Assembly (NCBI RefSeq): GCF_014202435.1
Contig: NZ_JACHGU010000002.1
Coordinates: 372,001-436,000 of the forward strand
Reading direction: 5' to 3'
Length of the DNA stretch: 64,000 bases
Origin: Pseudoxanthomonas broegbernensis
GTDB lineage: Bacteria; Pseudomonadota; Gammaproteobacteria; Xanthomonadales; Xanthomonadaceae
Numbering within the stretch: position 1 is the stretch's first letter; each line of letters begins with the position of its first letter. The notes beneath the pieces were generated by a model. That model was not told the DNA's origin and did not search any database. It saw nothing but the letters and a program-made list of their open reading frames with translations. Of the stretch, positions 36,786-40,220 are shown piece by piece. The translations under genes and the position numbers were made by a program.

Positions 36786-37400
36786 ATGACCCGCCATTTC
36801 TCGATGCTGCGCGATTTCCAGTTGGCCGACGGGTTCACCCTGGCCAACGCGTTCTGCGGCACCGGTGCGATCTTCGCCGCCATGCGCTTCCTGCAGGATG
36901 GCCGCAGCGGCGACCTGCTGCTGGGCATGGCCCTGATCCCCCTGGCCTTCGTGTTCGACGCGCTGGACGGGCGCGTGGCCCGCTGGCGCAAGTCGTCCTC
37001 GACCCTGGGCCGGGAGCTGGACTCGCTGGCCGACGTGATCTCCTTCGGCGTGGCCCCGGCGGCGCTGGCCTACGCCTGCGGCATGCAGGGCGGCTGGGAC
37101 TGGCTGGTGCTGTCCTACTTCGTCGGCTGCGGGGTGAGCCGGCTGGCCCGCTACAACGTCACTGCCGAGCAGTTGTCCGACGGGCAGGACAAGGTGAGGT
37201 ACTTCGAGGGCACGCCGATTCCCACCAGCCTGGCCTTGGTGGTGCTGCTGGCCGTAGCCGCGGCGCAGGGGCGCATCGGCCACGGGTTGTGGTGGGGGCA
37301 ATGGCAGCTTGGCCCCTGGCAACTGCATCCGCTGGTGTCGCTGTTCGCCGTGTCCGGCTCGCTGATGATCAGCAAGACGCTGCGTATCCCCAAGCCCTGA
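36786..37400 (+). CDS. pssA: CDP-diacylglycerol-serine O-phosphatidyltransferase-like enzyme
   Basis: 204 aa, about five membrane spans. The CDP-alcohol phosphotransferase signature DG-x2-AR-x8-G-x3-D-x3-D is complete in DALDGRVARWRK to DSLADVI. GTPIPTS and the N-terminal LANAFCGTGAIF suit PssA. Start ATG 36786 is uncertain; an in-frame ATG at 36744 also lacks a strong ribosome site. It lies inside the PHB locus, between the oligomer hydrolase and phaE. Confidence 0.85.
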   Translation: MTRHFSMLRDFQLADGFTLANAFCGTGAIFAAMRFLQDGRSGDLLLGMALIPLAFVFDALDGRVARWRKSSSTLGRELDSLADVISFGVAPAALAYACGMQGGWDWLVLSYFVGCGVSRLARYNVTAEQLSDGQDKVRYFEGTPIPTSLALVVLLAVAAAQGRIGHGLWWGQWQLGPWQLHPLVSLFAVSGSLMISKTLRIPKP

Positions 37401-37449: not shown

Positions 37450-39153
37450 ATGGCCAACGCACCGTTCTCACCGTTTCAGGGCGAATTCGAATCGCTGGCC
37501 CGGCAATACTGGAACACCTGGAACGAACTGCTCGGCCGCGGCGCCGCGCCACAGGATGGCTGGAGCCTGCTCGCGGGAGGGTTGCCACCGGGGCTGGGAC
37601 GCATGGACCCGGGAGCGTTCGATTGGTTCTCGCGGATCCAGCAACTGGCGGCGCGGTTCGGCGGCGGCACCGGTAGCGCCGGTGCCGCCAACGCCAGTGC
37701 GGCCGATATCGCCCGCGCCTGGCGCGAGATGCTGGGCGGCGAGGGCGCCAACCCCTTCGCCCGTACCTTGCACGCGATGCCGGGCGGCCTGGCGGGCGGT
37801 GCCTGGCTGGAACAGATGCGGCCGCTGCTGGACCTGCTGCTGCGCCCGCTGCGCCAGCAGCAGGCCGAATGGCTGCAGCGCCCGGCCTTCGGCCCGGCGC
37901 GCGAGCACCAGGAGCGCCTGCAGGCGCTGGCCCTGGCCTGGCAGGAATGGGAGCAGCGCAACGAGGCGTTCGGCGCATTGCTGACCCGGGCCGGGCAACG
38001 CGCCTTCGAACGGTTCGAGCGCCTGCTGGAGGACCACGATGCGCCGGGCAAGCGGCTGGAGTCGGCGCGTGCCCTGTTCGACCTGTGGATCGACGCGGCC
38101 GAGGAGGCCTGGGCCGGGATCGCGATGTCGGACGAATACCGCCACGCGTATGGAGAGATGACCAACGCGCTGATGCGGCTGCGCCTGGGCTTGCAGCGCG
38201 AAGTGGAGCACTTGGGCGCCCTGCTCGGGATGCCCGGGCGCGGCGAGGTGGACGCCTTGCATCGCAAGGTGGCCGACCTGGAGCGCGCGCTGCATGCGGC
38301 GCGGCGCGGCGCGGCCGTGCAGCCGGCGCCGGCCAGGGCGGGCGCGACGGTCCGCGCCGAGGAAGAACCAAGCGCTGCGGCGCCGGCCGCCTCGCAGACC
38401 GGCTCCACCGCCTCGGGCACCCGGCGCCGCGGCGCCGCAGTGCGTACGCCCGTGTCCGCCCGCGGCAAGGCATCCGCGGGCCGTGCCCCGGCGGCCGCGC
38501 GAACGCCGAGCGATTCGCGCAAGGCCGCATCCGGTACCGGGAAGCCTTCGCCCGGGCAGGGCAAGGCCGCACGCCCGGCGGCCGCGCGCGCGCCCGTAGC
38601 GGCGAGGACATCGGCGCAAGCCGCAGCGGCGGCGAAGCCCGCGCGGGCCGCACAGGCCGCGACCGCCACGTCACGCCCCGGACGCCTGGCCCCAGGGAAG
38701 GCCGCCAAGGCGGCGCGCAGGGCACCGGCCCCCGTGGTCGCGGCGGCCGGGCCGGCGAAGCGCAGTGCCGCGTCGGCGGCGGGCAAGACCGCCCGTCCCG
38801 TGGCCACGTCCACCGTGGCGGCGAAGAAATCCACCCACTCCGGCAGCCGGGCGCCCAAGGCCGCGGCGGCGAAGAAGGCGGCATCGCCTGCGCGCCGCAC
38901 GCCGGGCGCCACCGCCGCCCGCAAGCAGGCATCGGCCCGGGCTGGGTCATCGCGGGAACGCAAGGCCGCCGCTTCCGGCCCGGCCTCGTCCGCGCGCACG
39001 GGACCGGCCAAGGGGCAGGCGAATGCGGCCGCCGCGTCGCCTCCCGCGCCGGCCAAGGTCGTGTCGATGAAGGACTGGGTGACCCGTAACCTGGCCGCGC
39101 CGCCGCCCGCGGCGGCCGCGCGCGGCGGCAAGCGAGGAGGGCGCGGCAAATGA
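37450..39153 (+). CDS. phaE: Class III PHA synthase subunit PhaE with long histone-H1-like tail
   Basis: 567 aa. Residues 1-285 are a normal PhaE: helical, rich in W/L/E, with the DLWIDAAEEAW ... DEYRHAYGEMTNALMRLR core and a terminal coiled segment. Residues 286-567 are a low-complexity tail of Ala, Lys, Arg, Pro and Ser with AAKK/PKAAAAKKAA/PARR motifs like histone H1 and the C-terminus of PhaM. The last residues are not low-complexity: MKDWVTRNL (540-548), then GGKRGGRGK. PhaE activates PhaC and forms the synthase complex. TAGAAT at 37423 and GGAGG at 37441 suit promoter and ribosome site. The stop overlaps phaC. Confidence 0.93.
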   Translation: MANAPFSPFQGEFESLARQYWNTWNELLGRGAAPQDGWSLLAGGLPPGLGRMDPGAFDWFSRIQQLAARFGGGTGSAGAANASAADIARAWREMLGGEGANPFARTLHAMPGGLAGGAWLEQMRPLLDLLLRPLRQQQAEWLQRPAFGPAREHQERLQALALAWQEWEQRNEAFGALLTRAGQRAFERFERLLEDHDAPGKRLESARALFDLWIDAAEEAWAGIAMSDEYRHAYGEMTNALMRLRLGLQREVEHLGALLGMPGRGEVDALHRKVADLERALHAARRGAAVQPAPARAGATVRAEEEPSAAAPAASQTGSTASGTRRRGAAVRTPVSARGKASAGRAPAAARTPSDSRKAASGTGKPSPGQGKAARPAAARAPVAARTSAQAAAAAKPARAAQAATATSRPGRLAPGKAAKAARRAPAPVVAAAGPAKRSAASAAGKTARPVATSTVAAKKSTHSGSRAPKAAAAKKAASPARRTPGATAARKQASARAGSSRERKAAASGPASSARTGPAKGQANAAAASPPAPAKVVSMKDWVTRNLAAPPPAAAARGGKRGGRGK

Positions 39154-40220
39154 GCGTCGGCCCGCTGCAATTCAATCCGCTGGACCTGGCCCAGGAGGCC
39201 TGGAGCTTCCAGCAGCGCCTGCTCTCCGGCATGCGCGTGCTCGGGCAGGTCGAGGACGTGCACTACGGCGCCACCCGGCGCGAGGAAGTCTGGCGCGACG
39301 GCAAGACCGTGCTGTACCGCTTCGTCGGCGAGCGCCCGGCATCCGGCCCGCCGCTGCTCATCGCCTACGCGCTGGTCAACCGCCCCTACATGGTCGACCT
39401 GCAGGCCGACCGTTCCCTGGTCAAGGGCCTGCTGGCGCTGGGGCTGGACGTGTACGTGATCGACTGGGGCTATCCGGACCGCTCGGACCGCTACCTGGCC
39501 CTGGACGACTACATCAACCGCTACATCGACGGCGCGGTCGACCACCTGGTGGAGGCCAGCGGCGGCCCGGTCAACCTGCTGGGGGTGTGCCAGGGCGGCG
39601 CGTTCTCGCTGTGCTACGCGGCCCTGCATCCGGACAAGGTGCGCAACCTCGTCACCATGGTCACCCCGGTGGATTTCCAGACGCCGGACAACATGCTCTC
39701 CAGTTGGGTGCGCGAGCTGGACGTGGACCTGTTCGTCGACGCCCTGGGCAACGTGCCGGCCGACCTGATGAACGCCAGCTACCTGATGCTCAAGCCGTTC
39801 CGGCTGAACCTGCAGAAGTACGTCGGCCTGGTCGACGCGCTGGACAGCCCGAAGGCGGTGGAGGACTTCCTGCGCATGGAGAAGTGGATCTTCGACTCGC
39901 CCGACCAGGCCGGCGAGGCGTTCCGCGACTTCATCAAGCAGTTCTACCAGGGCAACGCCTTCGTCAACGGCACCGCCAGCATCGGTGGGCGCAAGGTGGA
40001 CCTGGGCTTCGTCGACATGCCGGTGCTCAACATCTACGCCGAGCAGGACCACCTGGTGCCGCCGGACGCCTCGCGCGCGCTGGCCGGGCTGGTCGGCAGC
40101 GACGACTACACCGAGCTGGGCTTCAAGGGCGGCCACATCGGCATCTACGTGTCCAGCCGCGCCCAGCGCGAGGTGCCGGCGGCGATCCACCGCTGGCTGG
40201 CGGCGCGCGGCGGGGCGTGA
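39150..40220 (+). CDS. phaC: Class III polyhydroxyalkanoate synthase subunit PhaC
   Basis: 356 aa, the usual class III length. The lipase-like box with catalytic cysteine is LLGVCQGGAFS. VIDWGYPDRSDRY, AEQDHLVPP (Asp) and FKGGHIGIYVS (His) complete the active site. It polymerises 3-hydroxybutyryl-CoA and needs PhaE, encoded by the overlapping upstream gene. phaA and phaB (precursor supply) are not in the window. Confidence 0.96.
   Translation: MSVGPLQFNPLDLAQEAWSFQQRLLSGMRVLGQVEDVHYGATRREEVWRDGKTVLYRFVGERPASGPPLLIAYALVNRPYMVDLQADRSLVKGLLALGLDVYVIDWGYPDRSDRYLALDDYINRYIDGAVDHLVEASGGPVNLLGVCQGGAFSLCYAALHPDKVRNLVTMVTPVDFQTPDNMLSSWVRELDVDLFVDALGNVPADLMNASYLMLKPFRLNLQKYVGLVDALDSPKAVEDFLRMEKWIFDSPDQAGEAFRDFIKQFYQGNAFVNGTASIGGRKVDLGFVDMPVLNIYAEQDHLVPPDASRALAGLVGSDDYTELGFKGGHIGIYVSSRAQREVPAAIHRWLAARGGA

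Follow-up and report, generated by a model that had tools for sequence, protein, structure and literature searches.

Links between PHB granules and the nucleoid are ascribed, in a 2025 review of the subject, to PhaM, PhaF and PhaH (PMC13052382), and the mechanism is treated in a further source (PMC11352279). PhaM is described as a separate activator of the class I synthase PhaC1 (PMC13052382, PMC9049629); its binding to genomic DNA was reported from a gel shift (PMC3556143), and the attachment of granules to the nucleoid is assigned to four lysines of its PAKKA motifs (reviewed in PMC9049629). The tail of PhaF is reported to be unfolded when alone and to bind DNA, and the protein to end in a non-basic stretch of 35 residues (PMC3574117). 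A similar architecture is reported for AlgP, where a tail of 154 residues of KPAA repeats is needed for the spacing of polyphosphate granules; the net charges given for AlgP and PhaF are +55 and +35, respectively (PMC9239181). The name PhaE does not occur in the main text of the 2025 review (PMC13052382), and a literature search, in which coverage of subscription journals was limited, returned no description of a nucleoid tether in PhaE.

The window analysed here is a stretch of 64,000 nucleotides from Pseudoxanthomonas broegbernensis (G000:C2:372001-436000, in a genome of 3.47 Mb), and contains a class III PHA synthase locus with the following features:

36786..37400, + strand: CDP-alcohol phosphatidyltransferase gene, upstream, given for context only (PF01066; start placed by reading)
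37450..39153, + strand: phaE, class III PHA synthase subunit, 567 amino acids plus stop (open reading frame; PF09712 and TIGR01834 matches)
38158..38301, + strand: pre-tail helix, PhaE residues 237-284 (aligns with the C-terminal helix of PF05597 phasins)
38305..39150, + strand: basic low-complexity tail, PhaE residues 286-567, net +48 (composition; tails of relatives)
39058..39093, + strand: short conserved motif VVSMKDWVTRNL, PhaE residues 537-548 (relatives)
39121..39150, + strand: Gly/Arg/Lys-rich PhaE end RGGKRGGRGK, partly conserved (relatives)
39150..40220, + strand: phaC, class III PHA synthase catalytic subunit (TIGR01836, 525 bits)

The phosphatidyltransferase, which might at a guess be a phosphatidylserine synthase, is followed by phaE and phaC, the 3' end of the former overlapping the start of the latter by 4 bp, and then by DUF5329 and PspC genes. 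In profile searches, PhaE residues 63-284 matched PF09712 at 173.5 bits (cut-off 25.7) and residues 55-286 matched TIGR01834 at 162.1 bits (cut-off 154.95); the protein passes the curated profile cut-off and adjoins a class III phaC, and was classed as a class III PhaE. TIGR01837 matched residues 228-285 at E 0.0072, below its cut-off. No match of PhaE to the PhaM model NF043076 or to the phasin profile PF05597 was obtained at E 1 or better, none of the tail alone (residues 286-567) to NCBIfam models at E 1 or better, and a PDB search at E 0.1 found no relative with a solved structure. Naming the tail from Pfam was considered and rejected, as the whole of PhaE returned only a poxvirus-repeat row over residues 266-286 (E 0.048, below cut-off).

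The 282 residues of the tail include 96 Ala, 33 Arg, 29 Pro and 21 Lys, together with 6 acidic residues (Asp plus Glu), and read VVSMKDWVTRNL...GGKRGGRGK at their end. A first-pass annotation, made from the letters of this DNA, had taken residues 1-285 for an ordinary PhaE core and residues 286-567 for an Ala/Lys/Arg/Pro-rich tail with this ending, and both descriptions are borne out. The AAKK and PARR motifs that it had singled out are also present, with AAKK occurring twice and PARR once when counted in the translation, and Arg outnumbers Lys. The reading favoured here, which is held to be probable by a modest degree, is that this tail would build non-specific nucleoid tethering into the synthase itself, working like PhaF or PhaM; the disorder, DNA binding and tethering proposed for the tail, and the role proposed for the motif, are judged from composition, position and conservation.

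The possibility of a chance GC-rich reading frame was addressed with 2000 nucleotide shuffles of the tail DNA, and with a second set in which the base make-up at each codon position was kept. In the first set, the 21 Lys of the tail were reached by 0 of 2000 shuffles (mean 2.6, an 8-fold difference) and an acid count this low by 7 of 2000, and the net charge of +48 was reached by 448 of 2000, a result that counts against the tethering reading. Because random GC-rich DNA encodes much Arg, the net charge is unremarkable against this type of shuffle, and it therefore constitutes no proof on its own. In the codon-position-preserving set, 0 of 2000 shuffles equalled the tail in Lys count, in net charge or in scarcity of acids. 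A chance frame is thus ruled out by Lys and the acids, though not by net charge alone. Growth of the tail by tandem repeats was likewise rejected, with only short arrays being found (scores 32-49).

PhaE is present in all 17 genomes of the genus that were searched, and 14 intact proteins were counted after two that are cut by contig ends (L004, L016) and one that is frame-shifted (L017/L018), with tail and motif visible in another frame (L031), had been left out. A basic tail of 77-282 residues and net +19 to +51 is found in all 14, its charge density kept at net +16.7 to +24.7 per 100 residues despite sequence divergence, and the motif in 13, the exception being G016, which counts against the tethering reading; the check among relatives that the first-pass annotation had proposed for its tail thus came out in its favour, and a strain or assembly oddity as the source of the tail is ruled out by the tails of these relatives. 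The exceptional protein (L002/L032, P. taiwanensis) is an observation in its own right: its tail is down to 77 residues and the motif is lost, and it keeps a GRGGRAR end with phaC directly after, thereby providing a natural motif-less comparison.

The distribution of the motif was further followed in a scan of named records, from which the best 80 of 139 phaE loci were taken and 76 provided a complete reading frame (four were cut or not found). Among these best loci, V[VI]S[MI]KDWV occurs in 25 of the 76 complete frames and is missing in 51, the latter including a locus with the variant IVSMKDWV (L055) and the frame-shifted one (L031). Pseudoxanthomonas records account for 24 of these 25 carriers, the remaining one being Xanthomonas sp. 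XNM01 (L026); the Pseudoxanthomonas records lacking it, again among the best 80 of 139 loci, are L032 (P. taiwanensis) and L067, a P. suwonensis MAG whose tail contains unread letters and which does not group with the carriers on the tree. When VV[ST][IM]KDWV was searched for as a degenerate DNA pattern, with one mismatch allowed, 10 of 149 host-family genomes were hit, once in each and always at phaE; these belong to two genera (five of the six g1 genomes, and all five of the g286 genomes that were read), and within the genome of the window a single occurrence was found even with two mismatches. On a tree of PhaE cores (74 rows, with the bootstrap not settled and some long branches), 18 motif carriers and G016 form one group with support 89/79, and the motif requires two changes, where shuffles need 16.2 on average; its history would most simply consist of one gain and one loss. 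Across 28 carriers the V, V, S, K, D, W, V and R positions are invariant, and the codons for Val and Asp vary, those for Ser and Lys are constant and those for Arg hardly vary; the invariance of the residues together with the variation of the Val and Asp codons suggests that the motif is probably selected at the level of the protein. A strongly amphipathic motif helix was tried and rejected, since for five versions of it 716 to 1590 of 5000 shuffles had a hydrophobic moment as high.

Selection on the tail was estimated in eight pairs, in which its dN/dS was 0.23-0.56, compared with 0.03-0.23 for the last ~200 codons of the core, and was thus below 1 yet above that of the core in every pair. 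Such values fit selection on charge more than on sequence, and weak constraint would fit them too. For the motif and everything after it (seven pairs, 24-34 codons) the values ran from 0 to 0.88, so parts of that stretch are not tightly kept, which counts against the tethering reading. These results bear on an alternative in which the tail is a mostly neutral, GC-driven low-complexity expansion that serves as a passive spacer for a VVS[MI]KDWV docking motif, its charge being a by-product: tails that range from 77 to 282 residues within the genus and are poorly conserved in sequence, a dN/dS that exceeds that of the core in 8 of 8 pairs, and a net charge at the nucleotide-shuffle expectation are all in line with it. 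That alternative is nonetheless considered improbable, as dN/dS in the tail stays under 1 in the same 8 pairs, Lys stands at 8 times the nucleotide-shuffle mean with acids depleted, and basic tails are also found in family members that lack the motif.

Within the host family, PhaE was found in 133 of 149 genomes, and the tails of 62 of them, from 42 genera, chosen by the analyst, were read (L232, apparently frame-shifted, was kept in this count and omitted from the tree). All 62 tails are net positive, from +1 to +51 and at least +10 in 54, and that of the window is the longest. In a class-wide search 68 of 369 genomes matched, and the best 30 loci were taken, 28 of which are PhaEs outside the host family. 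In 16 of these 28 the last 40 residues sum to a net charge of +8 or more, and a clearly basic end is missing in 12, which counts against the tethering reading; their tails are 3-126 residues in length, the value of 3 being that of L128, whose fit to the core model is partial, and L115 has almost no tail. The protein of the window is like other class III PhaEs (TIGR01834, PF09712) in its full core adjoining a class III phaC, and differs from the 28 outside the family in a tail of 282 residues. On the sequences read, a basic PhaE end is common, and its extreme length and VVS[MI]KDWV are special to Pseudoxanthomonas in the broad sense. The conservation across the family that the first-pass annotation had proposed to check holds for a net-positive tail (62 of 62 read), but not for the motif (10 of 149 genomes). 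Its proposal that this organism may have merged PhaM into PhaE is not supported and is too narrow, because a tailed PhaE occurs in every family genome read (62 of 62) and often outside (16 of 28), and PhaF offers the closer comparison. Within the basic PhaE tails of other family genera, short hydrophobic-proline stretches were also observed (such as RQAIAAIAMPEPLKPMP, TAIARPQPP, LFAMSGIAAPMAPEPM and SPFASLMPQAPQPLP; from L194 and L195 of g283, L218 of g285, L228 of g298 and L234 of g304), which are possibly lineage-specific docking motifs in place of KDWV.

Other PHA proteins that might carry such a function were sought by profile. A separate phaM had been named in the first-pass annotation as a finding that would weigh against its claim, and NF043076 found none in the genome of the window at E 1 or better; the search in the host family covered a few members, among them that genome (G000), G001 and G180. 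In the class, NF043076 found PhaM in 1 of 185 genomes, the protein concerned (L270) having a basic end; this sample may hold few PhaM-bearing genomes. The single PF05597 phasin of the genome (L099) has 14 residues past the domain, with net charge -1. Among 14 genus phasins read, the tail is net 0 or less in 13 and +3 in G007; in this set the match of G003 has an internal stop, two genomes are without a match and one has fragments only. With no PhaM found and a phasin that has no basic tail, PhaE is thus the only PHA protein found in the genome with a basic tail, and a tether in PhaE is therefore plausible.

In the wider family, the best-scoring 30 phasin loci all have a basic tail (+5 to +24), and phasins paired with a PhaE have a tail above +2 in 44 of 57 cases, the other 13 belonging to g1 (6), g2 (3), g313 (2), g287 (1) and g322 (1). 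A family-wide rule by which the charge of the PhaE tail trades off against that of the phasin tail was rejected, with a Spearman coefficient of 0.03 (57 pairs, 38 genera) and of +0.31 without the genus, and in the five g286 genomes that were read a long PhaE tail occurs together with a tailed phasin, which counts against the tethering reading. Four of the family genomes read (L174-L177) also encode an additional, shorter protein of phasin type with a weak PF05597 match, whose tail has 28-42 residues and net +11 to +17.

An HC2 (PF07382) search of the genome at E 0.01 matched three places, phaE not among them and all of them Lys/Ala-rich stretches: L271 at 44.8 bits, over the cut-off, and L272 and L273 below it. 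L272 (G000:C1:79733-80152) has ~203 residues, a helical-looking N-terminus and a very Lys/Ala-rich AKK tail, and is possibly a separate granule or nucleoid protein; L273 (G000:C8:5218-5349) is a DNA topoisomerase (PF01131, 288.6 bits) with an AKK-rich end much like the PhaE and phasin tails of the family. The presence of the two H1-like proteins counts against the tethering reading for PhaE. Given these and a tailed topoisomerase, a separate tether is possible, with PhaE a redundant or minor one and the main link between granule and nucleoid lying elsewhere, for example in the H1-like protein G000:C1:79733-80152. The two HC2-type proteins, one over and one below cut-off, and the precedents of PhaF and PhaM as separate proteins would accord with such an arrangement, which is regarded as very unlikely: neither H1-like protein matched the phasin or PhaM profiles at E 0.01 or better, and no link of these proteins to granules was found in this analysis.

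The comparison with phasins extends to the helix that precedes the tail. In an hhalign comparison of profiles, PhaE residues 237-284 were matched to the final 48 residues of the phasin domain (probability 80, E 1.4e-5, 17% identity), some weak PF05597 matches coincide with phaE loci (for example, in G480:C4), and the basic tail, where present, comes after this helix in both families; common descent of the helix is likely on these alignments, although coiled coils can match by convergence. PhaE thus resembles PhaF of Pseudomonas putida (PF05597 plus tail) as a PHA protein with a helix followed by a basic, Ala/Lys/Pro-rich tail towards the C-terminus, a likeness that rests on the profile of the family's phasins, P. 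putida PhaF being known here by description. It differs in that PhaF is a granule-coat phasin and PhaE a synthase subunit, and in that PhaE ends in the KDWV motif and RGGKRGGRGK in place of the non-basic 35-residue end reported for PhaF (PMC3574117). With PhaM of Ralstonia eutropha it shares a partnership with the synthase and a basic C-terminal end, the granule-nucleoid link being that reported for PhaM (PMC9049629); unlike PhaM, it has no match to NF043076 and is a class III synthase subunit rather than a separate activator of class I PhaC1 (as described in PMC13052382). The comparison with AlgP of Pseudomonas aeruginosa covers the tails: both are long and H1-like, with the positioning of storage granules being reported for AlgP, but AlgP acts on polyphosphate granules through regular KPAA repeats (PMC9239181), and in the PhaE tail Arg outnumbers Lys and the DNA repeats are short and weak.

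A further alternative is that the tail, as a general polycation, has some polyanion other than DNA as its main partner (polyphosphate, RNA or ribosomes, or anionic lipid) and gathers the synthase at that site. Composition cannot separate one polyanion from another, and the similar tail of AlgP is reported to act on polyphosphate granule spacing (PMC9239181), whereas binding to DNA or the nucleoid is what has been reported for such tails on PhaF and PhaM (PMC3574117, PMC9049629), and an AKK tail is also found on the topoisomerase of the same genome; this alternative is considered fairly unlikely.

Under the favoured reading of nucleoid tethering through PhaE, the N-terminal ~285 residues would do what PhaE ordinarily does, associating with PhaC on the nascent granule, and the long, Lys/Arg-rich and acid-poor tail, which is probably disordered, would bind DNA by charge and without sequence specificity, as for the tails of PhaF, PhaM and AlgP. 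Synthase foci and young granules would thereby be distributed along the chromosome and divided between the daughter cells, and PhaE may be the main or only PHA protein that tethers in this genus, considering a phasin without a basic tail and a genome in which no PhaM was found. VVS[MI]KDWV, near the end of PhaE, would be a putative docking site for a partner. A broader and more tentative proposal, which is rather doubtful, is that class III PHA synthases of gammaproteobacteria usually carry their own nucleoid tether, that PhaE and PhaF-type phasins share an old module of helix plus basic tail, and that in Pseudoxanthomonas the task may have come to lie wholly on PhaE, whose long tail would have newly acquired, in KDWV, a docking motif for recruiting a further partner. 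If the favoured reading is true, a tether within the synthase subunit would couple the start, position and inheritance of the granule in one polypeptide, and would be relevant to the engineering of PHA production by class III enzymes.
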